Shown here piece by piece: positions 49,764 to 62,030 of a stretch of 64,000 nucleotides of DNA (within the stretch, counting starts at the first letter, position 1; the number at the start of each line of letters is the position of its first letter). Origin of the DNA: Flavivirga algicola. Lineage in GTDB: Bacteria > Bacteroidota > Bacteroidia > Flavobacteriales > Flavobacteriaceae. The stretch spans positions 124,001-188,000 of the forward strand of contig NZ_JABBHF010000010.1 in the NCBI RefSeq assembly GCF_012910715.1, read 5' to 3'. The notes below the pieces were generated by a model. That model was not told the origin of the DNA. It saw only the letters and a list, made by a program, of their open reading frames with translations, and searched no databases. A program made the position numbers and the translations under genes.

Positions 49764-52049
49764 TTATTCTTCTTCTGCTTCAGGGCTAGTAAGTGTAGCA
49801 GGTTCAACAGAACTATCATGGGCATTATGATATTCTTCCAAGAGATTCATAGTGGCTGTTAATAGGTCTTTTGTTTCTAAAAGAAGACCAAAATATAAGG
49901 TTGTATTTTTTGGACTGGATTCTTCCGTTCTAGTACGTTCAACTTGACTTTGTATTTTTTCAGTCACCAAATCAAAAACCTCTTTCTTGTTATTTAAAAT
50001 AGCACCAATTTGTTCAAATGATCTAGAGTCAAAAGCTTTTTTAGTTGTGTTAAATAACGACTCAAGATCCTGATCAATTTGTTTTAGCTCTTTAATTTGA
50101 TTGAATTTAAGTTTTTGATGGTTATTGTTTACATGTTTATGACTTGCCTTAGATATATATTCTAACGACTGTGTCATGTCTTGTAAATACCCTAAAATAT
50201 TAATGTAGAAATTACTTGCTCCTAAACTGGATTCGTCTAAATTTTTGATAAAGTAGAAAATATTGTCACGTAGTTCATCAATTTCAGTAGACAACTTGAC
50301 TATATTTTTCTTATTCTTTTTTAATAAAACAATATCTTGTTTCGCTAAACCACTAATAGCGCTTGAATAAATTTTATTACCACGTTTTACAACATTAGCT
50401 ATATTGTTTGCACTCTCATGAATAACACCTTGAATAGAACTACTTTCTGCCTGCGTTAAACTATCTTCATCAATAACATTTTTTGAATTCTTTTTGTGTG
50501 ATAAATAATTTCTAGCAAGTAAAATAACAGTTAACAACAACAAAATAGGTGTCATAACGCTAGGATTCCATTTAATTAAAAAGACAACAGTTCCTGCTGC
50601 TATAAAAGCACCAATAGCAGTACCAAACCATCCTCCAATAACATTTAATACACCAGCAACTCTGTAAACGGCACTTTCTCTACCCCAAGCACGATCTGCA
50701 AAAGATGTACCCATAGCAACCATAAATGTTACGTACGTTGTCGATAAAGGTAATTTCATGGATGTTGCTATCGCAATTAACACGCCTGCAACCATTAAGT
50801 TTACAGAGGCTCTAATCATATCGAAAGCAGGCGCATCGATACTTTGATCTTTAGTTAGTACAACATTAGGTTTTTCAAAACTCTTGCCTATTTTTTCCTG
50901 AGTTGATGCAGGTATAATTGCGCTTATTGCTTCAGATAACCAAGTCGATCCTTTTACGACGCTTCTCGATAATAAATTTGGCTCAAACTTTTCGTGTGTT
51001 TCTCCCTGGCGAGATAAGCTTATTTCCGTTTCGGCTACTGTTTTAGCTTTTTTAGAAAGCCATAAGGTTAATACCATAATCCCCCCAGCTATGAATAAAA
51101 GTAAAGGTTCTGCAGGGACTTTTTTGTCAAGTACTTCCATGGAAAACATAGATGGATCAACACCAGAGCTAAACCAAGCTTCGTAAGAATGGTAAGCCGC
51201 CATAGGTACACCAATAAAGTTCACTAAATCATTGCCTGAAAAGGCCAATGCCAAACCAAAAGTTCCTATCGCTATTACTACAATTAATATGGTTTTTTTA
51301 AATATTTTTTGAAATGCAAAAGAGAATAATGTCCAAAAAACAATGCTTCCAAGTATAATAAAAAGCTCATTGCCTTCTAGGAGCCCTTTAAGATCTTTAT
51401 AATAAGGCGTTCCCTTTAACCCTTTTAAAAAGATAAAATAGGTTATTGCTGCTAAAGAGATGCCACCAAAAATAGCACCGAAGTTTTTTATTTTCTTTTC
51501 GTAATGAAATGTAAAAACCAAACGAGAGACCCATTGTACGATGGCACCAACAGTAAAAGCAATAAATACCGACATGATAATACCCCGTATAATTTCGAAT
51601 GCTTTTTTAGTATTTATATATGCTCCTAAATCTGTGAAGGTTTGAGAGTCTGAAGCACTAATTTTTATTAAAGACATAACTACGGCAGCTCCCAATAAAT
51701 TAAATACAATAGAAACTGTTGTAGAGGTTGGTAAACCTAAAGTATTAAAGAAATCTAACAGTAAGATGTCTGTAATCATTACAGCCATAAAAATATACAT
51801 GATCTCTTCAAAATTAAACATGGCTGGTACGAAGATCCCTTTACGTGCAACCTCCATCATTCCACTTGAAAAAACAGCTCCAATAAAAATACCTAAACTT
51901 GCAACGATCATAATAGTTCGCATAGAAATGGCTTTAGAGCCAATAGCCGAGTTTAGGAAATTTATAGCATCATTACTTACACCAACTACAATATCAGCTA
52001 TCGCTAGAACTGTAATGGCAATTAGCATTAATAAATAAATATTGTCCAT
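49764..52049 (-). CDS. PiT-family phosphate transporter fused to PhoU-like domain
   Basis: A 761-aa protein. The PHO4 signature occurs twice: VGVSNDAINFLNSAIGSKA near residue 22 and a later NLMVAGVLIAIATSMKLPLSTTYVTFMVAMGTSFADR. There are about 12-14 membrane segments, more than the simple PiT. Residues about 555-735 are a soluble, helical PhoU-like domain (DIVLLKKNKKNIVKLSTEIDELR...SLEYISKASHKHVNN). Some PiT genes have a separate pit-accessory PhoU gene; here it is joined. The start is ATG 52049. It has two Pho-like half-sites upstream, about 13 nt from the predicted transcript start. Confidence 0.9.
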   Translation of the reverse strand: MDNIYLLMLIAITVLAIADIVVGVSNDAINFLNSAIGSKAISMRTIMIVASLGIFIGAVFSSGMMEVARKGIFVPAMFNFEEIMYIFMAVMITDILLLDFFNTLGLPTSTTVSIVFNLLGAAVVMSLIKISASDSQTFTDLGAYINTKKAFEIIRGIIMSVFIAFTVGAIVQWVSRLVFTFHYEKKIKNFGAIFGGISLAAITYFIFLKGLKGTPYYKDLKGLLEGNELFIILGSIVFWTLFSFAFQKIFKKTILIVVIAIGTFGLALAFSGNDLVNFIGVPMAAYHSYEAWFSSGVDPSMFSMEVLDKKVPAEPLLLFIAGGIMVLTLWLSKKAKTVAETEISLSRQGETHEKFEPNLLSRSVVKGSTWLSEAISAIIPASTQEKIGKSFEKPNVVLTKDQSIDAPAFDMIRASVNLMVAGVLIAIATSMKLPLSTTYVTFMVAMGTSFADRAWGRESAVYRVAGVLNVIGGWFGTAIGAFIAAGTVVFLIKWNPSVMTPILLLLTVILLARNYLSHKKNSKNVIDEDSLTQAESSSIQGVIHESANNIANVVKRGNKIYSSAISGLAKQDIVLLKKNKKNIVKLSTEIDELRDNIFYFIKNLDESSLGASNFYINILGYLQDMTQSLEYISKASHKHVNNNHQKLKFNQIKELKQIDQDLESLFNTTKKAFDSRSFEQIGAILNNKKEVFDLVTEKIQSQVERTRTEESSPKNTTLYFGLLLETKDLLTATMNLLEEYHNAHDSSVEPATLTSPEAEEE

Positions 52050-52068: not shown

Positions 52069-52114
52069 TGCAAATATCCTAAGTGTTTCCAAGTAGTGTG
52101 TTATGTTAATGTTA
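52069..52114 (-). promoter_or_regulatory. Pho-box-like promoter of the PiT gene
   Basis: Sense-strand half-sites TAACATT (52108-52114) and TAACACA (52097-52103) are 11 bp apart, with a weak third. The -7-like GATATTTG is at 52071-52078. Geometry equals that of the other arrays: half-site phase +28 and +39 from the box end at 52069. Confidence 0.6.
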
Positions 52115-52119
52115 TGTTT

Positions 52120-53310
52120 TTAAAAATGAATATCAAATTGTAATCGCCACATAAGCTCGTTATTACCATTATCCACTTCTAAATGACTAATGTCTGTTTG
52201 TACTTTTAGTTTATGACCCACTATATATTTTGAAACCCCTAATGTATATTGATTTTCTGGGTTTTTGCCAGTAATTGCCCTGTCCAATTCTATATTTGTA
52301 TATCGACCAGAAATTTCCCAATTACTTTTTAACAAATAACCGGTTTGTATATTTAAACCTTTTCCAACCTGAACTTCGTCTCCAGTTAATGTACCATCCG
52401 AGTTTTTTGCAAAAGGGTCATCAGTATCTCTATCTGCATATTCTGCCATTAATGAAAACCCTTTGTATTTAAACATGGCATCAATAAAGATAGTACTTAT
52501 ATTGGTTTCATAAAAGCCAGTATCTGTAATCATATAAGAACCTTGATTACTTCTGTTTTTAACAGCATTATTATTGAAATCGTAAGTTGCTGCAAGCGAT
52601 AGTTTAGGTGTTTTTTCACGCTTTAAATCACTTCCAGAATAATCTCCTTTACTGGAAAAATTTCCAAATGGGAATAGCTCAATACGGCCAGTATATTGGT
52701 GGCCACCTAGATTACCTGTAGTTACATTTCTTCCTTCCCCTTGAGATATAGATAACATTTCTTTAACAATAAATGTGTCCGAAAGATTAAAACGATGTCT
52801 TAATTGAACGCCCACATCACGATCTATATTAAATCTACTATTTAATAAAGAACGATCTACCTGTTGAAGATTCCCAGATGAAACAACACGCTCTCTGTTT
52901 CCAGGTAGCTTTGTTTGACCAAACCATAACTCGAAGTTTGGTGCAAAGTTCCATTTCATAACCGCATCTAAAATGTATCGAGGGGCGTTACTTGTAAATG
53001 GTGAGGCTCCTGAAATATCTCTGTTTGATAATCCGAGTTCTAATTTATATTTAAGTTTTGGTGTGAAAGCATAGCCATCAAATTTTAAACGGGCACGTCT
53101 TACTAAAAAATTAGCTTCATTGCTTTCCCCATTTTCCCAATTAGAGATTGCTAAAAATTGCATTCTTGCTCCAATTTTCATGGTCCAAGAACTATCCTTA
53201 CCTACGAGATTAAATAATCCTTTTCCAAATTTTGGGGTGTTTGTTTCTTGCGAATACAAGAAGTTAATAGCAAATAGGCAAATTGCTACTAGCGTAGTTT
53301 TAAATTTCAT
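52120..53310 (-). CDS. OprO/OprP-type phosphate-selective porin
   Basis: A 396-aa outer-membrane porin. ATG 53310 gives the signal MKFKTTLVAICLFAINFLYSQ; an upstream in-frame start would add residues ahead of it. The mature part is beta-barrel (ARLKFDGYAFTPKLKYKLELG and on) and ends FDIHF, the aromatic C-terminus. The family is OprO/P phosphate/pyrophosphate porins. It is flanked by PiT and has the clearest Pho-like promoter, so phosphate uptake fits well. A nearby RNA may pair with its translation start. Confidence 0.88.
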   Translation of the reverse strand: MKFKTTLVAICLFAINFLYSQETNTPKFGKGLFNLVGKDSSWTMKIGARMQFLAISNWENGESNEANFLVRRARLKFDGYAFTPKLKYKLELGLSNRDISGASPFTSNAPRYILDAVMKWNFAPNFELWFGQTKLPGNRERVVSSGNLQQVDRSLLNSRFNIDRDVGVQLRHRFNLSDTFIVKEMLSISQGEGRNVTTGNLGGHQYTGRIELFPFGNFSSKGDYSGSDLKREKTPKLSLAATYDFNNNAVKNRSNQGSYMITDTGFYETNISTIFIDAMFKYKGFSLMAEYADRDTDDPFAKNSDGTLTGDEVQVGKGLNIQTGYLLKSNWEISGRYTNIELDRAITGKNPENQYTLGVSKYIVGHKLKVQTDISHLEVDNGNNELMWRLQFDIHF

Positions 53311-53332
53311 TGTCAGTATTAGTTTTTGTCGC

Positions 53333-53378
53333 TGCAAAGAACCAATACTAATGTTAACTTAATGTTAACTAAGGGTTA
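53333..53378 (-). promoter_or_regulatory. Pho-box-like promoter of the porin
   Basis: Three sense half-sites at 11-bp steps: TAACCCT (53372-53378), TAACATT (53361-53367) and TAACATT (53350-53356). An 8-bp spacer and TTCTTTGCA (53333-53341, containing the TTTG of the -7) follow. On the plus strand this shows as two tandem copies of TAATGTTAACT. Confidence 0.75.
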
Positions 53379-53380
53379 AT

Positions 53381-53592
53381 ATAAAAACAAATAAAGGCTG
53401 CCTTGGCCAAGGCAGCCTCATTAGAAATCATAATAATGTAGTCGACAAAAACTAATAGATTATAATGAAATACTAATTGTGTCTAAAGACGCTGCAAATT
53501 TCTTAGTTTAAAGTAACTTAAATGTGATGGTAATATTAAGTAATTATTAAGATTTTCCAATGTTAAATCTTTGTATTTAAAACTCTTAAAAT
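53381..53592 (-). ncRNA. Candidate Pho-controlled small RNA opposite porin start
   Basis: A stretch of about 200 nt with no supportable ORF, transcribed leftward. It has a Pho-like promoter at 53593-53649 and ends at a 24-bp perfect palindrome (53395-53418) followed on the minus strand by TTATTTGTTTTT, a strong terminator in that direction only. Minus-strand positions 53457-53443 (TATTAGTTTTTGTCG) are perfectly complementary for 15 nt to the porin leader (53331-53317). Eight further nt (53471-53464) pair with the porin ATG region (53304-53311). This suggests base pairing that hides the porin start. Expression has not been shown. Confidence 0.55.
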
Positions 53593-53649
53593 CAGAAACA
53601 TACATGTTTAATGTTAAATTAATGTTATGTAAAGGTTGATTTAATGTTA
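53593..53649 (-). promoter_or_regulatory. Pho-box-like array facing no gene
   Basis: Four sense units in 11-bp steps: TAACATT (53643-53649), CAACCTT (53632-53638), TAACATT (53621-53627) and TAACATT (53610-53616). After the 8-bp spacer comes ATGTTTCTG (53593-53601), -7-like TATGTTTC. Same geometry as the other six promoters. It would drive the candidate small RNA. Confidence 0.65.
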
Positions 53650-53666
53650 GCTTATTTGTATATTTG
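53636..53666 (+). promoter_or_regulatory. Promoter of the MORN-repeat gene
   Basis: TTG (53636-53638), 20 nt, TATATTTG (53659-53666): an exact Bacteroidetes promoter. The Pho-like half-site at 53643-53649 sits between the two boxes. Confidence 0.6.
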
Positions 53667-53694
53667 GTATATAATGTTAAAAACCCCCATAATT

Positions 53695-54048
53695 ATGAAG
53701 AAATCAATTTTATTTTATTTTGCCTTTTTAATTACTGTGGTATCTTTTGCTCAGCAAAAGAGAGATTTAAAACTTAACAAAGAAACTAACTTAATTGAGG
53801 TTGTTTATTATCACGACAATGGTGTTGTAAGCCAAACAGGAACTTACACAGCAGATGGTAAATTACACGGTGAGTGGCTAAGTTTTAACACAGAAGGTAA
53901 AAAAGAAGTTTCTGCAAATTATGATAATGGTAAAAAAGTCGGCAAGTGGTTCTATTGGAAAAACGGAACTGTAAAAGAAGTAGATTATAACGCTAATGCT
54001 ATAGCAGGTTTAAAGGAGTCTGAAACTAAAGGAAAACAGAGTTTTTAA
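53695..54048 (+). CDS. Secreted MORN-repeat protein
   Basis: A 117-aa protein, started at ATG 53695 (MKKSILFYFAFLITVVSFAQ signal). The mature part has MORN-like repeats: YYHDNGVVSQTGTYTADGKLHGEW, FNTEGKKEVSANYDNGKKVGKW. It resembles the YwqK-family proteins of Bacteroidetes; the role is unknown. It is divergent from the candidate small RNA. Confidence 0.75.
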   Translation: MKKSILFYFAFLITVVSFAQQKRDLKLNKETNLIEVVYYHDNGVVSQTGTYTADGKLHGEWLSFNTEGKKEVSANYDNGKKVGKWFYWKNGTVKEVDYNANAIAGLKESETKGKQSF

Positions 54049-54073
54049 ACCTAAGAACAAAAATAGCTAACCA

Positions 54074-54115
54074 AACTAAAAAAGCATCCTAAATTTTAGG
54101 ATGCTTTTTTAGTTT
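54074..54115. terminator. Bidirectional terminator
   Basis: A perfect stem of about 20 bp, arm AAACTAAAAAAGCATCCTAA, with T-runs on both strands, between the MORN gene and the T9SS-protein gene. Confidence 0.9.
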
Positions 54116-54129
54116 GTTAAATTTACTTT

Positions 54130-55503
54130 CTATTTAATAGAAACTTTATAAGTTTTATCCTTAGACTTAATAACATATAAACCGCTAGTTAAAGATTGTA
54201 TCAGTTTGCCTTCTTCTTCTTTTGAGCTGACTTCTTTGGACAAAACTTTTCGCCCCTGGAAATTATAAATGTCGATAGGGTATGGTTTTAAAACGTTCTC
54301 AAAACTAGGTTGAGGTTGGTTTAATTTTGAATGGTTTTTATTGGTTGATGAAGAATATTTAAATTGAGTAAACTTAATATTGTCACTTTCATTTGTCTCA
54401 TCAATATCATCATTAATATCAATATCAAAAAATAATCGATAAATCGAGTTATTACTTAAGTTAGGAGATACTCCTATATTATTTCCAACAAAAATAGAAA
54501 AGGTTTTTTCTATTACTTGATTGGTACCGATATTTCCTATGTTTGCATCGGTTTCGACGCCATAGAACGGGACACTAGGATGAGGATATTCTCTAGATGT
54601 GTTATTTGTGAATATGACGTCTAACGAAACTGATTGTGCTGTAGTTTGTCCATCATTTTTCACGCCTACAATAATGTCATACCAATTATTATTGTTTAAT
54701 GTTGGCGTGTTTGTGCTGCCATTAGGGTAGTTAAAGATAACTTGGTTATTACTTTGTCTTAAAATTTTTAAACTAGACATATACAGATTTGGTTTACCAG
54801 TAGGAAGTGGACATCCGTTATTGGAAGAAGGACCAGCCTCATTAGGGCAGTTGTCTTGGCTATCAGGTACGCCATCACCATCAGTATCAGGCTCACTACA
54901 ATTAAAAGTAATTGGAGGAAATACAGTTTGATAATCTATGTCGTCTATATCAAAATCAGCGTCCCCTCTACCATTATATCTATTCAGTATTTTACAATAT
55001 CTAGTACCTAGTCCATTTCCTAAATTTATTAAATATACCTTTCCTACATCTAATAGTTGAGTGATTTTTATATTAGCTTTTGATCTTCCATCATGAGCAG
55101 TAGTTTGTCCGCAAATGTTATTCTTGGCTTTTTCTAAAGTTGTAAATGTTTCAAAACGGTGATATCTATAAAAGTTGAATTCGCAAACATCGACTTCAGA
55201 TTTAATATCTGTACTTTCTAAGTCAAAGTCGGCATCTCCAGGACCAATACCACGATTAAGCACTTTGCAATATCTAACACCCAAATTAAAATTAGTACCT
55301 AAATCTATTCTATAAAATTTATTTAGATCTAATAAATAATCAATGTTGATGTTAACTTTTACTCTATATTTCTGATTGCCTGTTTCTGTACAAGCTGCCG
55401 CAGGATTGTTAGTAGGATATGTCTCTAGGCGATGATAATTTTGTGCATCAATTATGAATGATAAGCACAATAAACAAAATAACATAAGTGATTTTTTTTT
55501 CAT
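54130..55503 (-). CDS. T9SS-secreted protein with Ca-binding repeat
   Basis: A 457-aa secreted protein; signal to about residue 20 (LLCLSFIIDAQ). Residues 21-187 contain two similar units of about 82 aa, each with YHR(L/F)ET at the start, RYCK(V/I)LNR and GDADFD near the end. A TSP3-like calcium segment DTDGDGVPDSQDNCPNEAG is near residue 203. A CARDB-like domain follows (VGVKNDGQTTAQSVSLDVIF). The end (IYNFQGRKVLSKE...GLYVIKSKDKTYKVSIK) is a type A T9SS sorting domain. The repeat function is unknown. The upstream array suggests phosphate control. Confidence 0.8.
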   Translation of the reverse strand: MKKKSLMLFCLLCLSFIIDAQNYHRLETYPTNNPAAACTETGNQKYRVKVNINIDYLLDLNKFYRIDLGTNFNLGVRYCKVLNRGIGPGDADFDLESTDIKSEVDVCEFNFYRYHRFETFTTLEKAKNNICGQTTAHDGRSKANIKITQLLDVGKVYLINLGNGLGTRYCKILNRYNGRGDADFDIDDIDYQTVFPPITFNCSEPDTDGDGVPDSQDNCPNEAGPSSNNGCPLPTGKPNLYMSSLKILRQSNNQVIFNYPNGSTNTPTLNNNNWYDIIVGVKNDGQTTAQSVSLDVIFTNNTSREYPHPSVPFYGVETDANIGNIGTNQVIEKTFSIFVGNNIGVSPNLSNNSIYRLFFDIDINDDIDETNESDNIKFTQFKYSSSTNKNHSKLNQPQPSFENVLKPYPIDIYNFQGRKVLSKEVSSKEEEGKLIQSLTSGLYVIKSKDKTYKVSIK

Positions 55504-55524
55504 AACATTTGGGGTTTAAATTTG

Positions 55525-55581
55525 AAGAAAGATAAAACACACATGTTAACGTAGGCTTTTGCTAGTGTTATTTATGAGTTA
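55525..55581 (-). promoter_or_regulatory. Pho-box-like promoter of the T9SS protein
   Basis: Sense units TAACTCA (55575-55581), TAACACT (55564-55570) and TAACATG (55542-55548), phased by 11 bp with one weak unit between. A -7-like TATCTTTC is at the constant distance (core 55525-55533). Confidence 0.5.
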
Positions 55582-55663
55582 TTTAACTTGAATTTCCTTT
55601 GTGTTTTTCATAATGAGTCGATTTTGTGTCAACTTATTTCAGGACGAGACATTTATTAACAAC

Positions 55664-55691
55664 AAAAAGCCCTGCAATTGCAAGGCTTTTT
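55664..55691 (-). terminator. Terminator of the two-repeat lipoprotein gene
   Basis: Imperfect stem AAAAAGCCcTGCA / TGCAaGGCTTTTT with the loop of zero to two nt, followed by a U-rich end on the minus strand. It lies about 25 nt after the stop. Confidence 0.65.
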
Positions 55692-55716
55692 GTCTAAAAA
55701 AATATACTATTTTATA

Positions 55717-57771
55717 TTATAGACCAGCATTTCTCCAAGTCCATCCTGAAATATCTAATGCAGCTGCATCTTTTCCTGAATTTAAAGTGTATTTGCTAGT
55801 TTCTCCAGATAGTAAAGTAGCATCAGCATCAGCACCTTCTATTTGTACGTTAGATAAAGCTCCGCCATCTTTCATATCTAAATCTACATCGTAACCAGTT
55901 AAATGTAAGCCAGTAATTGTACCACCAGACTGCTTTTTAAACTGTAAACCGGTACCACCTACACTAGAAATAGCAGTGATATTAGTGAATGTTGGGTTAC
56001 CATTGTCTTTATCTCCTTCAAAAACAGTTGAGAAACCACTAACGGTATGAGATATGTAAGCGTTAGTTACAGATCCATTCCATCCTTCAGTCCAGTCGAT
56101 AGAATCGTCGTCATTGTTTTCTAAGTATAAGTTTGTAGCAGAAACAGTTCCTCCAAAAAATTCAACGCCATCATCAGAACCATTTATTACAGATATGTTT
56201 TCTATAACAGTTTCAGAACCAACAGCGTATAAAGAAAGCCCGTTATATTGAGATTCAGAGTTAATTTGAGCACCAGTTCCTTTAAGCACTAAGTATGTTA
56301 TAGAACCAGAGTTGTCATTGTCTGTAGTACCACCATAAACAAAGCCACCTATTTCAGCTACAGCATCAACACCTGCTGTTGTAGTAGCGTTTCCACAAAT
56401 AGTTAAGCCACCCCAGTCTCCTCCTTCAGCATTTGCAGAAGCAATTACAACAGGGGCTGAAGCAGTACCTTGAATATCTATTTCTCCACCTTGAAGAACA
56501 GCTATGTAAACTCCTGTACCACCATCTCTAGCAGTAATTTTAGTTCCAGCAGGGATTGTTAATTTACCACCATCTTGAACAATATAAGAAGAGTTTAATG
56601 TATAATTTACAGAAGGGTCTAAAGTAATGTCTCCAGTAACAGCTCCTTGTAAAAGACTGCTTTCAAAAGATAAACTAGATTCAACCCATGAGAAGTCATC
56701 AACATTAACAGTAGGAACAACAGAAGTATTTAAAGAATAAAAATACTCACCAGTTTCTACTTGCTTTTCAGGAGTAGCCATAGCGACAGGAGAGTAGCCA
56801 TCAGAGAAAATTACATTAGCAGTGTCACCACCATCTTTCATATCTAAGTCAATATCATAACCACTTAAAGAAAGGCCGCTTATAGTACCACCAGATTGTA
56901 ATTTAAATTGTAAAGCCGTACCACCTACTGTAGAAATTCCTGTAATATTGGTAAAAGTTGGGTTTCCATTAGTTTTATCGCCTTCAAAAATTGTAGAAAA
57001 ACTGTTACCATCTTTATCTTTCTTTGTATTAGAAATATAAGCATTAGTCACAGATCCATTCCATCCCTCTGTCCAGTCGATGGAATCATCAAAGTTGTTT
57101 TCTAGGTATAAGTTGCTTACAGCTACAGTACCACCAAAGAACTCAACTCCATCATCTTCACCATTTATTACCGCCACATGATCTACTAATGTGCCAGAAC
57201 CAACAGCGTAAAATGAAACACCGTTATATTGAGAATCTATACTGATTTGAGCTCCAGTACCAACAATTTGTAAGTATCTTATAATTCCTGAGCTATCAGT
57301 GTCATCGTTACCTCCATAAATGAAACCACCAACTTCAGCCTGAGCATCTACACCAGCAGTCGTAGTTGCTTTACCGCATAGGGTTAAGCCACCCCAATCT
57401 CCAGGATTTCCATCCGCAGAAGACATTACAACAGGATTGCTTGCATTTCCATTGATGTTGATTTCACCACCTTTTAAGACAGCAATATAGATATCTGTTC
57501 CTTTATTATCCGCTAGAATTTTTGTACCTGCAGGAATGTTTAATGTAGCACCGTCTGCTATAATAAATTGACCTGTTAAGTTGTAAAGAGTTGAGGCATC
57601 TAGTGTATAACTTTCTTCTAAAGTACCGTTCATTACTCCAGATTCTAAGTTTTTCAAAACGTCAGATTGATCTGGTACTATTGGAGCTGGATCATCAGAG
57701 CTACAACTTGTTAAATTAATAGTAGCTATTGCTAATATTATGGTGAATAATTTTAAAGATAATTTTTTCAT
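55717..57771 (-). CDS. Two-repeat parallel-beta lipoprotein next to the TonB receptor
   Basis: A 684-aa lipoprotein (lipid Cys near residue 23, NLTSCSSDD). It consists of two tandem copies of about 310 residues (about 40-350 and 370-684), each with IPAGTKI, GGEI, GDWGGLTLCGKATTTAGVDA, YNG-(V/L)-S-(F/L)-YAVGS and GVEFFGGT...LYLENN-DDSIDWTEGWNGS. Gly/Asp-rich strands suggest a right-handed beta-helix. It follows the TonB receptor and probably is its surface partner. It has its own Pho-like promoter and both neighbours have terminators, so it is a separate transcript. No enzyme motif was seen. Confidence 0.75.
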   Translation of the reverse strand: MKKLSLKLFTIILAIATINLTSCSSDDPAPIVPDQSDVLKNLESGVMNGTLEESYTLDASTLYNLTGQFIIADGATLNIPAGTKILADNKGTDIYIAVLKGGEININGNASNPVVMSSADGNPGDWGGLTLCGKATTTAGVDAQAEVGGFIYGGNDDTDSSGIIRYLQIVGTGAQISIDSQYNGVSFYAVGSGTLVDHVAVINGEDDGVEFFGGTVAVSNLYLENNFDDSIDWTEGWNGSVTNAYISNTKKDKDGNSFSTIFEGDKTNGNPTFTNITGISTVGGTALQFKLQSGGTISGLSLSGYDIDLDMKDGGDTANVIFSDGYSPVAMATPEKQVETGEYFYSLNTSVVPTVNVDDFSWVESSLSFESSLLQGAVTGDITLDPSVNYTLNSSYIVQDGGKLTIPAGTKITARDGGTGVYIAVLQGGEIDIQGTASAPVVIASANAEGGDWGGLTICGNATTTAGVDAVAEIGGFVYGGTTDNDNSGSITYLVLKGTGAQINSESQYNGLSLYAVGSETVIENISVINGSDDGVEFFGGTVSATNLYLENNDDDSIDWTEGWNGSVTNAYISHTVSGFSTVFEGDKDNGNPTFTNITAISSVGGTGLQFKKQSGGTITGLHLTGYDVDLDMKDGGALSNVQIEGADADATLLSGETSKYTLNSGKDAAALDISGWTWRNAGL

Positions 57772-57795
57772 TTTTGTTATTAATTTTTAATGTTA

Positions 57796-57852
57796 TGCAA
57801 AGAAAAATGATTAGTGTCTCTTCATGTTTATTAGAATATTAAAACTAGGTTA
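57796..57852 (-). promoter_or_regulatory. Pho-box-like promoter of the two-repeat lipoprotein
   Basis: Sense units TAACCTA (57846-57852), TAATATT (57835-57841) and TAAACAT (57824-57830) at 11-bp steps, a weak fourth, 8 bp, then TTCTTTGCA (57796-57804), identical to the porin box. Confidence 0.55.
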
Positions 57853-57963
57853 CGTTTTTCATTCGAAACACTTGTTTTTGTTACCAAAATGTTAATTAAA
57901 AAGCGCCAAGATTTAATTATTGGCATGACCGCTTAATTCTGACAAATACTGTACTGTTTAAAC

Positions 57964-57997
57964 GAAAATATCCCAAGATTTTCTCTGGGATATTTTC
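57964..57997 (-). terminator. TonB receptor terminator
   Basis: Perfect 12-bp stem GAAAATATCCCA/TGGGATATTTTC. It lies 27 nt downstream of the receptor stop. Confidence 0.75.
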
Positions 57998-58024
57998 ATT
58001 TTTGAGATAAATTTTTGTCTAGAT

Positions 58025-60778
58025 TTAAAATGTATATTTTAAACTTAAGCTTAATAAACTTCCTTTTTTATAAGAGCTAACAACTTTGTTAGTTTCTTCA
58101 TTAGTAATAATAAAGTCTCTAACCTTTTGTGTTTGTTGTATGTCTGGATTAAGAAGGTTTCTTCCAGTAAATTTTACTAATAATTTATCGGTTATTTTTT
58201 TGCTGACTACTAAATCCATAGTAAAGAATCCCTTTTCAATAATTTCATCATTATAAAGGGTGGCACTATTGGCAAAATCTTCAGGAGATCCTAATGCAAA
58301 TATTTTATCTGATGAATAATTACCTGTTAACGTGGCGATGAATTCTTTTTCTTTTTGAGAGTTGTAGCTTAATGCTCCGTTTAAAATCAAATCTGATGCG
58401 CCTTGTAAATCTGATTCTGTAACATTTTTATATTGAAATTCTTCTAATAAATCTTGATTAAACCACATTTTAGTAATGTTGGTGTTGAAATTAAGAATAG
58501 GGTCTTCTTCCTCATTTTCAATTAAGTTTAATCGCGTTTCAAGCTCAACACCAAACACTTTAGCTTTTTCACCAGTATTTGAAAATTCAAAGATTCCTGC
58601 AGACCCTCTAGTTAAAGCCAAGTTAATTGGGTTTTTTATTTGTTTGTAAAATGTTGTAGCAGAAACAAGCTCACCTTGTTTAGGGAAAAATTCCCATTTT
58701 AAATCAACATTAAAAACATCAGATTTTTCTAAATCTGGATCTCCTCTTGTAACCCGACCTGTTGGCGAAACATATTCAAACGGTGATAACTCTTTAAACT
58801 CAGGTAGCGTTTGAGTTAAACTTGAAGCAAATCGTAAAAAGTGTTTTTCATTTAATTCATACTTTAAATTGAGACTTGGATAGATATCATTATAATCTTT
58901 TGTGATCGACCCAACACGTCCAACAAAGTTTGCAACATCCCATAAGACATTGATTTCATCTTTCTCATATCTAACTCCTACATTTCCAGAGATTTTTTCG
59001 TTTAATCTGAAATCTAAATTAGCAAAACCAGATATAATAGTTAAATCTGCATCATATCTGTCTGGATCTCTTTCTCTTAAAACTAAACCGTTATTAAAGT
59101 TGTCTTCGGTAAAAGTAAGAGAGAACTCATCAACAGAAGGCACTTGAAAACCTCTAGCTCTAACGCCAATAAATAGTGAGCTAAAGACTCTTTCTTTTTT
59201 ACGAATATTAGCTCCTACATGAAGTTTAAAAGGTTTGTTATCATCTTCATCAGCTTCTCCAAAAGTAATTTCATCTTTTAAGTAAGCATTAAACTCAGTA
59301 TCTTCAATTTTCTGCTTAGATTTTCTTTGTTGAAAATCACCAACATGCGCATATTGAGTTAAATTAGATGTATTGATATCTAAAATATTGGCTTCATTTC
59401 TAATTCTGTTAGGTTCTTCGGCCAATACAAAATTATAACCACCTGCCCATTTAAGTGTATTGTTTTCACTTATTTTGTGATTACCAATTATTTGGTTAAC
59501 AAGCAACCTGGTTTGTTTGAAATTTTGATCTCTAACAAAAGCACCGTCTTCTTGTGGGTCTTGGTCAAAAACATAACCTAAACCATTTCTGCCCTGTTCG
59601 TAAACATTATCTGTACTTCTATTAACCGATAAACTGCTTATTTTTATTCTATTTTCACTGTTTATTTTAAGTCCTAAATTTACATACCCAGTAGAATTTG
59701 TATTAGTAGTAAACGACTCAACGTCTGTAAATTCGTTATCTAATATATTAGATCTGTAGCTCCTAAATACACCTTCTTGATAACCGTAAGATTTTGAATG
59801 AGAACCAGAAGCAAAGATTGATAGCTCTTTTCCAAAAATATTAAACTTATGTCCGCCAGATAAAGATAGACTATAGTTCCCAGTACTTTTTTGATCTAAT
59901 GGATCCCAACCTTGTCTTGTAATAAGATCGACCGTAGCAAATTGTTTTTTATGGAAACCTAGCGTGACATCCTCAGAAGCAACACTTCTCTTAAAATCAC
60001 CGTCTACTCCTAAAACATTTGTGTTATATCCAGAACTAACGCTAACAGAAAATTGTTTTTTCGAATATTCTTTTGAAGAGATATCTACATTTCCAGAAGA
60101 TTGGTCTGCATAACCAGATGTAGTATAAGTTTTGCTAATCCCTACATTTTCAATCATGTTTGTTGAAAATAAATTTAAATTAATATTTTTATTATCAACA
60201 TCATCGGATGGTATAGGTAGTCCATTCATGGTTGTAGAAAGATACCTATCCCCTAGACCTCTTATATAGATTTTACCAGTTCCTTCACTTCTAGTAACCC
60301 CAGATATTTTAGTTGTTGCCGTAGCTGCGTTAGAAACACCTATTTTTCCTAATCTTTCAGCTCCAATACTTTCTTTTATTACAGCAGCTTTCTTCTGTTC
60401 TAATAAAAGTGCAGTCTCACTTTCTCTCTTAGTCGTCGTCTTAATTACAATCTCATCTAAAGATGCTGCACTTGCACCCATAGGTACATTGACTTCGGTT
60501 ACTTTACCAGCAACGATTTGTACATTTATTTCTTGAGTTTCATATCCAACAAAGCTAAATACTAGTGTATAAGCTCCTGGGGTTAAACCCTCGAAAATAT
60601 AATGTCCATCGAAGTCTGAAGTCGTCCCTTTGGTAGTCCCTTTTATTAATACATTAGCAAAAGCTAAAGGCTCATTGTTATATTCTTTGTCCGTTAGGTT
60701 ACCAACCACAGAACCAGTGCTTTGAGCTTGCGAAAATGTAGCAGTGAAGACTGCTAATAATACTAAAATTTTTTTCAT
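58025..60778 (-). CDS. TonB-dependent receptor with CarboxypepD-like N-terminus
   Basis: A 917-aa outer-membrane receptor. Signal MKKILVLLAVFTATFSQAQ. Residues 22-105 are a CarboxypepD_reg-like domain (VVGNLTDKEYNNEPLAFANV, TLVFSFVGYETQEINVQI). A plug (about 115-230, SNAATATTKISGVTRSEGTGK, LSTTMNGLPIPSDD) and a large barrel follow, ending KYTF. The substrate is unknown. The Pho-like promoter and paired lipoprotein suggest an organic-phosphate or other P-source, which is an inference. Confidence 0.92.
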   Translation of the reverse strand: MKKILVLLAVFTATFSQAQSTGSVVGNLTDKEYNNEPLAFANVLIKGTTKGTTSDFDGHYIFEGLTPGAYTLVFSFVGYETQEINVQIVAGKVTEVNVPMGASAASLDEIVIKTTTKRESETALLLEQKKAAVIKESIGAERLGKIGVSNAATATTKISGVTRSEGTGKIYIRGLGDRYLSTTMNGLPIPSDDVDNKNINLNLFSTNMIENVGISKTYTTSGYADQSSGNVDISSKEYSKKQFSVSVSSGYNTNVLGVDGDFKRSVASEDVTLGFHKKQFATVDLITRQGWDPLDQKSTGNYSLSLSGGHKFNIFGKELSIFASGSHSKSYGYQEGVFRSYRSNILDNEFTDVESFTTNTNSTGYVNLGLKINSENRIKISSLSVNRSTDNVYEQGRNGLGYVFDQDPQEDGAFVRDQNFKQTRLLVNQIIGNHKISENNTLKWAGGYNFVLAEEPNRIRNEANILDINTSNLTQYAHVGDFQQRKSKQKIEDTEFNAYLKDEITFGEADEDDNKPFKLHVGANIRKKERVFSSLFIGVRARGFQVPSVDEFSLTFTEDNFNNGLVLRERDPDRYDADLTIISGFANLDFRLNEKISGNVGVRYEKDEINVLWDVANFVGRVGSITKDYNDIYPSLNLKYELNEKHFLRFASSLTQTLPEFKELSPFEYVSPTGRVTRGDPDLEKSDVFNVDLKWEFFPKQGELVSATTFYKQIKNPINLALTRGSAGIFEFSNTGEKAKVFGVELETRLNLIENEEEDPILNFNTNITKMWFNQDLLEEFQYKNVTESDLQGASDLILNGALSYNSQKEKEFIATLTGNYSSDKIFALGSPEDFANSATLYNDEIIEKGFFTMDLVVSKKITDKLLVKFTGRNLLNPDIQQTQKVRDFIITNEETNKVVSSYKKGSLLSLSLKYTF

Positions 60779-60798
60779 TATTTCATTTTATTTCTAGC

Positions 60799-60877
60799 TG
60801 CAAAGAACGGTAGGTTATGTAAAGGGTGTGTTACCTTTAGATTAAACAACAGTAACTAAAGAGTTATCTAAATGTTA
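60799..60877 (-). promoter_or_regulatory. Pho-box-like promoter of the TonB receptor, six units
   Basis: From 60877 downward, six sense units at exact 11-bp steps begin TAACATT, TAACTCT, TTACTGT, TAATCTA, TAACACA and TTACATA (to 60816). After 8 bp comes TTCTTTGCA (60799-60807). Each unit begins T-A/T-A-C/T. Confidence 0.65.
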
Positions 60878-61548
60878 CCTAAAACAGGTCTGTTTTTTAA
60901 TTTGGAAACAATAAGTTAACATTGAAAACATCTTAAAAAGAATAGATTTTATAGAAAACAACAAAGTGAGCTGTCTAAAACGTTTGGTAAATGATGGTTT
61001 ACAGTTTGTTTTTTGACTTAAACAAAATCATTGTCTATACCTATACCTGCCTGTCTCTACTATGGTGCACCCACAAATGATCATGTGTTTATAAAATTGC
61101 AAGCACATGGATCGTAGCCAAAGGCCATGGGATTTGTAGACGAGTGTCAAATGTTTGAAGGTGTCGTTAAAAAAGAAATGCTGTTTGAGCGCAGCCAAAC
61201 AACAAAATAGCCAAGCAAAAAGTTTAGGGAATAAGGATAGCAAACCAAGAGAGCTCATTATACGAGTTTATTTCTTTTAGACACCGAAAACCAATTTGAC
61301 CGTCGAAAATCTAAGGCTAGACTTTTTTGTTTCTTTTTTGGGCAATGCAAAAAAGATATGGAAAAAAATGTTGAATTCTTCCTCTTCCAGTCCATTCAAT
61401 TTTTTACTCAAACACAACTTTTGGACATGATCCTTTTTTTAGTGATTTCAGCGTAGTGATGAAATAATTTCGTTCAATGATATTAAAAAAGAGAAGTGTG
61501 GCTAAATTAGCGTGAAAAACTGAATAATTTTTTATGCTTAATTATTGA
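60878..61548. other. 670-bp non-coding gap with weak inverted-repeat ends
   Basis: No supportable gene. A 76-codon frame at 61028-61258 (minus) has no family, signal or start signal. TGTCTAAAA (60972-60980) and TTTTAGACA (61275-61283) are inverted and resemble the ends of the 49609 element, so a degenerate element of about 315 bp is possible. The middle (61050-61210) is less AT-rich than its flanks. Confidence 0.35.
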
Positions 61549-61929
61549 TTACCGAGAAGCCGTTTTGCTACTTTTTTCGCTAAGATTAGCAATCGATGCA
61601 AGATCAGTTAAAGAAACCGTGCTGGCTCCTAAAGATGTTTTGATAAATTTAGAAGCACCAGAAATTACTTTTACTTTTAATTCCTTTGTTTCATAACCTA
61701 CAAAACTACATATTAAGGTATAGTCCCCGTCTTCTATGTTTTCAATAAAAAACAAACCTGTTTGATCTGTGGTTGATTTTATGGAAGTTCCTTTAATGGT
61801 AACATCTGCAAATACTAAAGGACTGTTGTTAAACTCTCTGTCTAACAATTTTCCAGTTATAACTCCAGTATGTTGTGCAAAACAAAATGAAGTAAAAAGT
61901 AATATAAAAAGTGTTATAAGATGTTTCAT
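61549..61929 (-). CDS. Stand-alone CarboxypepD-like protein, TonB-receptor N-terminus paralogue
   Basis: A 126-aa secreted protein. ATG 61929 gives the signal MKHLITLFILLFTSFCFAQ. The rest is one CarboxypepD_reg-like domain, close in sequence to residues 20-110 of the 58025 receptor (ITGKLLDREFNNSPLVFADV, FSFVGYE-type end). It stops where a receptor plug would begin. So it is either a receptor 5' fragment or a free partner domain. Keeping the signal and a six-unit Pho-like promoter argues that it is expressed. Confidence 0.7.
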   Translation of the reverse strand: MKHLITLFILLFTSFCFAQHTGVITGKLLDREFNNSPLVFADVTIKGTSIKSTTDQTGLFFIENIEDGDYTLICSFVGYETKELKVKVISGASKFIKTSLGASTVSLTDLASIANLSEKSSKTASR

Positions 61930-61951
61930 TAATTTATAGTAAAATAACTGA

Positions 61952-62030
61952 TGCAAAGAACTAATATTACAATTAGTTATATGTTATCAAATTATTAAAG
62001 AACGGTCACTAAAATGTTACTTTAATGTTA
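61952..62030 (-). promoter_or_regulatory. Pho-box-like promoter of the CarboxypepD protein, six units
   Basis: From 62030 downward, six sense units at exact 11-bp steps begin TAACATT, TAACATT, TGACCGT, TAATAAT, TAACATA and TAATTGT (to 61969). Then 8 bp and TTCTTTGCA (61952-61960). The same architecture as the receptor promoter at 60799. Confidence 0.7.

Follow-up and report, generated by a model that had tools for sequence, protein, structure and literature searches.

The PhoB box of Escherichia coli consists of two 11-nt direct repeat units, each with seven well conserved positions (CTGTCAT) and four less conserved ones (PMC4415409). In a 64,000-nt stretch of the Flavivirga algicola genome (contig NZ_JABBHF010000010.1, positions 124,001 to 188,000; hereafter the window), promoters around genes for a PiT phosphate transporter, an OprO/P-type porin and a TonB-dependent receptor carry arrays that are best read as a PhoB box joined to the -7 element of Bacteroidota, and one such array precedes a predicted small RNA (sRNA) with a loop complementary to the porin leader. 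The arrays share with the E. coli box the 11-bp period, the direct repeats and the association with phosphate genes, and in our own comparison a T-N-N-C-A-T core is common to both if shifted by one base. They differ in their TAACATT units, which number up to six per promoter, in the fixed 8-bp gap to the -7 element (TTTG), and in that PhoB is here the presumed binder. In Bacteroides fragilis, PhoRB likewise controls phosphate genes and PhoB binds a pstC promoter fragment, but its clearest targets are the pst genes, which are absent here, and the passages cited define no box sequence (PMC3547664). The phoBR cluster of Flavobacterium johnsoniae holds genes for OprP, a TonB receptor, a lipoprotein and a glycosyltransferase (PMC8115612), the same kinds of genes as those around our candidate phoB and in the window. 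PstSABC is lacking there too, and the receptor and lipoprotein are strongly induced by depletion of inorganic phosphate (Pi). The words "motif" and "promoter" are absent from the text of that study, its OprP is uninduced, and the passages cited mention no sRNA. Putative Pho boxes have also been predicted computationally at plcP clusters of marine heterotrophs, in a study that includes Dokdonia sp. MED134 with a phosphorus-responsive plcP; its cited passages contain neither a box sequence nor a statement of a box in a Bacteroidota genome (PMC4796936). GibS (PMC7366714) and Rfp18 (PMC9723704) come, like our candidate, from intergenic regions of Bacteroidota, and pairing with mRNAs has been predicted or shown for them. 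Their targets are metabolic genes and proteases, respectively, and the cited passages do not describe them as phosphate-controlled, a distinction drawn from published descriptions. Bacteroides have no obvious Hfq and ProQ homologues (PMC7366714). In the open-access literature searched, judged by titles, abstract beginnings and cited passages, we recognised no Bacteroidota Pho-box sequence and no sRNA tied to phosphate or a porin.

The arrays of the window share one geometry. All seven listed by a first-pass annotation of the window are present on the minus strand as 7-bp TAACATT-like units with 4-bp gaps. As that annotation had described, at every window site 8 bp separate the last unit from a core that has TTT at its centre, four cores are identical (TTCTTTGCA), and the arrays of the receptor and of a stand-alone CarbopepD_reg_2 protein (CarboxypepD or CarbD) hold six units each in phase. 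Its list overlooked an eighth array (53549-53493) and included two less convincing entries, the 53593 array, which is probably not a promoter, and the weak array before a protein with a type IX secretion system (T9SS) sorting domain. The seven arrays and the eighth make up our eight-site set, in which every site is in register with the direct-repeat period (7 + 4). Summed over four units per site, matches to TAACATT number 161 in register, compared with 150 after a shift of one unit upstream and 54-109 for the 18 other phases tried. When each site was left out in turn and scored against 127,882 window positions, six of the eight ranked above all other positions; one position tied with or surpassed the PiT site, and two did so for the T9SS site. 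Chance matches in AT-rich intergenic sequence would account for the two-unit repeat TTAACATTNNNTTAACATT, which is unspecific on its own, with 43 matches genome-wide at up to two mismatches versus 44 for the reversed pattern; the specificity stems from the longer array plus core. For the arrays as a whole, the phase test, the leave-one-out scores and the strand-specific conservation described below refute this explanation at most sites, the T9SS site excepted, and leave it next to no credence. The first-pass annotation had itself raised the concern that shuffled sequence might match equally often; no block-shuffled stretch reached the matrix threshold.

Conservation in relatives is confined largely to the sense strand of the expected genes. 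The comparison covered 78 loci with receptor homologues, some from close kin of the window's genome, in which open reading frames were called and assigned to window genes by BLASTP. Many of the loci used here and below are metagenome assemblies. The 300 bp upstream of each gene plus 30 bp were scored with a matrix built solely from the eight window sites, at a threshold of at least 16. Sense-strand arrays reached this threshold at 33 of 34 porin, 32 of 47 PiT, 52 of 89 TonB receptor, 13 of 24 CarbD and 16 of 80 lipoprotein homologues, denominators that include paralogues. The corresponding figure for other genes in the same loci was 4 of 664, two of the four proving to be a porin-like gene and the pstS of a Lutibacter locus (L073), and no shuffled stretch scored as high. 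Reverse-strand matches were few, except at divergent regulated promoters (dGTPase 23, MORN 30, PhoB 5). The core lies mostly about 30 bp upstream of the start codon and, among the matches listed, often reads TTCTTTGCA, TTATTTGCA, ATATTTGCA or ACTTTTGCA. The 8-bp gap to the TTT core is kept in relatives at the porin, PiT and receptor genes and not at the distal 53593 array. Receptor promoters in Marinilabiliales (L072, L078, L080, L087, L096) show runs of TAAT-like units with an 11-bp period, some with a TTTGC core, and PhoBR-like genes are adjacent. These runs suggest that a Pho-type box may be older than Flavobacteriaceae.

The regulator that binds the units would be PhoB. The best match to TIGR02154 in the genome (5.02 Mb, 37 contigs) lies at C23:130839-131492 and is followed by a histidine kinase gene, with a PF04101 glycosyltransferase gene on the other strand. 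Its orthologue (75-81% identity) stands divergently beside the receptor gene in Maribacter, Cellulophaga and a Psychroflexus metagenome-assembled genome (MAG), and a few genes off in an Aquimarina. More distant PhoBR-like pairs lie beside the receptor gene or one gene off in Marinifilum, Carboxylicivirga, Plebeiobacterium and Prolixibacteraceae loci. The PhoU, PhoA, PhoX and PstS models have no match in this genome, in which the PiT/porin/TonB-receptor cluster may be the main phosphate-uptake equipment; enrichment at pstS was therefore examined in relatives. PstS was detected in 13 of 199 family genomes, in 10 of them above the cut-off. An array scoring at least 16 precedes three of these ten genes (L277, L279, L282), one PstS gene below the cut-off has an array score of 23.3, and the Lutibacter pstS (TIGR02136, 286 bits) has one of 25.1, 30 bp before its start. 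Eight of the ten sit behind a porin gene, three of them at less than 25 bp, where the porin promoter would serve both genes. On Pi depletion in F. johnsoniae, the reported fold changes are 8.0 for the receptor, 9.9 for the lipoprotein and 3.1 for PhoB (PMC8115612, Table 1; taken as log2), and this receptor and lipoprotein are presumably orthologues of the window's genes. Because of the conserved arrays, the arrays at some pstS genes of other genera, the adjacency of PhoBR and the induction in F. johnsoniae, the receptor and the lipoprotein are likely phosphate scavengers. The local PhoB-type regulon proposed by the first-pass annotation is well supported by the same evidence, with the exception of the T9SS gene and the 53593 promoter. 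Its assignment of receptor, lipoprotein and T9SS protein to phosphate scavenging likely holds for the first two and is unsupported for the third, of which the array is weak and unconserved.

Several observations weigh against this reading. A scan of the genome with the eight-site model, which scored 150 of 5311 first-look candidates, gave E < 0.3 for the eight training sites only, and no further confident site emerged. The lipoprotein array exceeds the threshold in just the one-fifth of homologues given above, none of 22 phoB homologues has a sense array, and the genome's own phoB region has none either. Six of the ten above-cut-off PstS genes score at most 6.7 and one scores 15.9, and in F. 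johnsoniae Pi depletion fails to induce OprP (-1.3, p 0.25; PMC8115612). The two top NCBIfam matches of the regulator are PhoB models, yet it reaches just 218.7 of the 296.2 bits required by one and 209.6 of the 270 bits required by the other; we therefore term it PhoB-type, by context. These low scores, the phoB homologues without a sense array and the further full-length PhoB-model matches in the genome (C1:12938, C4:81784) would suit another OmpR-family regulator, with an envelope regulon that happens to include phosphate genes. Such a regulator is nonetheless improbable, given that the two-component pair beside the receptor in several relatives is PhoBR, that arrays occur at some pstS genes, that PiT, porin and pstS are all phosphate genes, and that a like receptor and lipoprotein beside F. 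johnsoniae phoBR rise on Pi depletion (PMC8115612). Beyond the confident sites, 17 weak-match loci from the genome scan were rescored by the matrix, and four have a site of at least 13. The highest score among them, 17.7, belongs to a CAP-domain lipoprotein gene (C10:7253-7750, L148), with the core 33 bp before the start codon. Outside the window's cluster, no gene seen makes a better candidate for the regulon.

Two sites of the original list require a different reading. The 53593 array had been taken as the promoter of a gene-less locus, a reading left unsupported because TTT occurs in the middle of the core in 0 of the 21 relatives that conserve this array on the side of the MORN gene facing the sRNA. 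In the window and 14 relatives its core position precedes the sRNA core by 97-100 bp; in two more the distance is 86-87 bp, shorter by about one unit, and one of these two also has a register at 98. The likeliest role of the array is that of a distal PhoB array acting on the sRNA or of a site for the divergent MORN gene, which it may serve in reverse orientation. The MORN-repeat gene is retained beside the sRNA and the porin gene in many relatives, divergent from the sRNA. Membership of the T9SS gene in the regulon is unsupported: the array is weak, and both homologues found have lost it, scoring 7.2 and 0.5.

The array at 53549-53493 precedes a stretch that ends in a GC-rich hairpin, and it is predicted to drive a structured RNA of about 99 nt. 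In F. johnsoniae the G of TTTG lies at -5 (PMC6847099); this spacing puts the predicted first nucleotide of the RNA at 53490 (sequence beginning GUCUUUAGAC) and that of the porin mRNA at 53330 (beginning GACAAAAACUAAUA), the latter 20 nt upstream of the AUG. For the 101-nt piece 53392-53492 the computed folding energy is -29.5 kcal/mol (z -4.8). RNAalifold on a MAFFT alignment missed the central stem. The three-hairpin structure was instead set by hand from the fold of one member; across 40 aligned sequences 86.4% of its cells are paired, a percentage favoured by the dropping of pairs kept by fewer than 25 of the 40 rows. Two-sided change is seen at 19 of the 25 pairs, in 57 cells versus 17.5 in shuffles and 13-28 in slid versions of the structure. 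The sequence offers a putative promoter for the sRNA, an array with its core, and a putative terminator, the terminator-like hairpin.

The sRNA is widespread in Flavobacteriaceae. At E <= 0.01 a covariance model detects it in 177 of 299 genomes searched from the family, and in 147 of 236 genera, and below E 1e-6 in 117 genomes from about a hundred genera. At the order level, 17 of 246 genomes match at E <= 0.001, and all matches below 1e-7 belong to Flavobacteriaceae. Nothing in Rfam 15 at E <= 1 overlaps 53392-53490; the Rfam matches lie elsewhere. Among 90 further RNA stretches, which are part of the covariance-model hits, 53 have an array score of at least 14 at the RNA start, versus 0 of 90 shuffled; the other 37 score below 14, a point against the mechanism proposed below. 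Weak model matches outside the family (L296-L299, E 1.9e-4 to 3.7e-4) were rejected as members: all four are without a target, L296 has a somewhat similar U-rich loop and a terminator, and the other three are without the loop word. In genus g127, weak matches (E 7e-4 and 8e-4) occur in two of the 15 genomes listed and the remaining 13 have none, a pattern of either genus-wide loss or a diverged form of the sRNA.

The loop element of the sRNA, TATTAGTTTTTGTCG, has its complement in the opening nucleotides of the predicted porin mRNA, and the exact 14-mer CGACAAAAACTAAT occurs in this genome solely in the porin leader and, as its complement, in the RNA. The predicted duplex has -19.0 kcal/mol, compared with -4.5 to -7.7 for five other leaders of the cluster and with a mean of -8.9 and a best value of -17.8 kcal/mol for 500 shuffled porin leaders. 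Covariation was assessed in the 111 RNA-porin pairs with a readable adjacent target, out of 130 RNAs, against 5000 shuffles. At position -2, 98 are T-A and 7 are A-T, giving 105 paired where shuffles average 92.6 and reach at most 99; at position -4, 72 are A-T and 14 are T-A, giving 86 paired where shuffles average 67.4 and reach at most 81. The 99 distinct pairs agree, with 93 paired at -2 (shuffled maximum 88) and 77 at -4 (maximum 74); no other loop position exceeds the shuffled maximum. Individual loci show matched changes as well. Position -1 is exchanged for C-G in L062 and G-C in L244, one U and one A are lost together from RNA and target in L056, and a U-to-A change in the loop U run of L255 is met by an A-to-U change in the target, leaving a 13-nt run. 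In L241 and L257 the complementary runs reach 21 nt with G-U counted.

The RNA could also be the leader or attenuator of a longer porin transcript, since the two are close and on the same strand: a porin homologue lies directly downstream in 80 of the 90 further RNA loci, starting a median of 80 nt past the end of the RNA model. A strong terminator-like hairpin followed by a separate porin array and -7 core makes this quite unlikely, as does the complementarity retained by unlinked genes, 15 kb apart in a Urechidicola MAG (L170) and on separate contigs in the MAG UBA7954 (L172, with one G-U). The shared strand in all 80 of these porin-matched loci also excludes a cis-antisense sRNA of the DonS type. 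Against a conserved pairing stand the following points. The shuffles ignore kinship, and the seven A-T pairs at -2 share similar loops and may be one lineage; in nine of the 90 further loci the RNA has exactly the sequence of one of the 40 aligned rows. Run lengths disagree in four pairs (six A versus five U in three, five A versus three U in one), and the Formosa genome of L040 has the RNA and no exact 15-mer target elsewhere. The covariation, the paired base loss and the two unlinked genomes support a real pairing between the RNA and the porin message. A second, barely similar porin-like family replaces OprO/P beside the sRNA with the target kept (L073 16206-17213; L237; L232; L255). In L237 and L255 this different protein is encoded directly behind the target site, and in L232 a 33-codon frame lies between the target and the porin-like gene. 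Identity between the L073/L237 protein and OprOP is 23% across 227 residues (E 0.009), and the former matches no Pfam family.

We consider it likely that PhoB boxes switch on the cluster together with the sRNA and that the sRNA pairs with the porin leader, most likely blocking ribosome entry. This mechanism draws on arrays, geometry, conservation, RNA structure, complementarity and covariation, all seen at the level of sequence. Several PhoB subunits would bind head to tail on the 11-bp units ending 8 bp before the -7 element. When phosphate is scarce, PhoB would recruit RNA polymerase to the promoters of the PiT, porin, TonB receptor, lipoprotein, CarboxypepD protein and sRNA genes, and porin and sRNA would be induced together. 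The sRNA is predicted to fold into three hairpins, with its loop of about 20 nt pairing with the first 14 or so nucleotides of the porin mRNA. The duplex, 7-20 nt before the porin start codon, would then block ribosome entry, a brake induced along with the porin itself (incoherent feed-forward). Alternatively, the sRNA might cover the 5' end of the porin message and thereby protect or activate that message (coherent feed-forward). The pairing begins with the predicted +1 nucleotide of the mRNA, a position at which a duplex might hold off decay from the 5' end, and the like arrays at the RNA and porin promoters, with their expected co-induction, would suit a helper. The duplex, however, falls within the -20 to +20 region, in which F. 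johnsoniae messages that are unstructured tend to be initiated better (PMC6847099), and repression is therefore moderately favoured over stabilisation as the sign of the effect; the helper role is the less likely of the two and a serious alternative.

The features of the window are listed in Table 1. The PiT, porin, T9SS, lipoprotein, receptor and CarbopepD_reg_2 genes all lie on the minus strand. Among named relatives, the TonB receptor is closest to the proteins of Flavivirga rizhaonensis and of an uncultured Flavobacteriaceae bacterium, both at 91% identity, and the two-repeat lipoprotein has no Pfam or NCBIfam match.

Table 1. Genes, PhoB-type arrays and sRNA elements of the window (positions count from its first nucleotide)
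Feature	Position	Strand	Remark
PiT phosphate transporter	49764..52049	-	PHO4, PF01384
PiT PhoB-type array, 3 units, -7 core ATATTTGCA	52069..52114	-	score at least 16 in 32/47 homologues
OprO/OprP-type porin	52120..53310	-	Porin_O_P, PF07396; start codon at 53310
sRNA target CGACAAAAACTAATA, predicted 5' end of porin mRNA	53317..53331	-	predicted +1 at 53330
Porin PhoB-type array, 3 units, core TTCTTTGCA	53333..53378	-	33/34 homologues
Predicted ~99-nt sRNA	53392..53490	-	hairpin at the 5' end, central stem bearing a conserved ~20-nt loop, hairpin terminator; ends predicted
GC-rich terminator-like hairpin of sRNA, then T-rich stretch	53396..53419	-	from sequence
sRNA loop element TATTAGTTTTTGTCG, complementary to porin leader	53443..53457	-	sequence complementarity
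sRNA PhoB-type array, 4 units, core AAATTTGCA	53493..53549	-	absent from the first-pass list
Distal array, 4 units	53593..53649	-	core position not conserved in relatives
MORN-repeat protein, divergent from sRNA	53698..54048	+	MORN_2, 28.8 bits, just below the 29.6 cut-off
T9SS C-terminal sorting-domain protein with TSP_3 repeat	54130..55503	-	regulon membership doubtful
Weak array and core ATCTTTCTT before T9SS protein	55525..55581	-	leave-one-out score 13.2
Two-repeat lipoprotein downstream of receptor	55717..57771	-	homologue follows receptor in relatives' loci
Lipoprotein array, 4 units, core TTCTTTGCA	57796..57852	-	score at least 16 in 16/80 homologues
TonB-dependent receptor	58025..60778	-	CarbopepD_reg_2 and Plug
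TonB receptor array, six units, core TTCTTTGCA	60799..60877	-	score at least 16 in 52/89 homologues including paralogues
Stand-alone CarbopepD_reg_2 protein (CarboxypepD/CarbD)	61549..61929	-	domain match
CarboxypepD protein array, six units, core TTCTTTGCA	61952..62030	-	score at least 16 in 13/24 homologues

Flavobacteriaceae probably hold a phosphate-regulated sRNA family with a dedicated porin partner under a common PhoB-type switch, the sRNA closing or stabilising the porin message at its first nucleotides. The pair would be old, spanning about a hundred genera, co-evolving base by base and surviving both the separation of the two genes and the replacement of the porin (L237, L255 and, less directly, L232). 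If this holds, Flavobacteriaceae would have a defined Pho-box sequence, fixed to the unusual -7 element of the phylum, and Pho regulons would become readable from the genomes of bacteria without pst and phoA. The family would also have a widespread sRNA with one clear target, and the covarying duplex would make RNA control in Flavobacteriaceae directly testable. Orphan TonB receptors and lipoproteins would, in turn, be tied to phosphate scavenging in marine bacteria.

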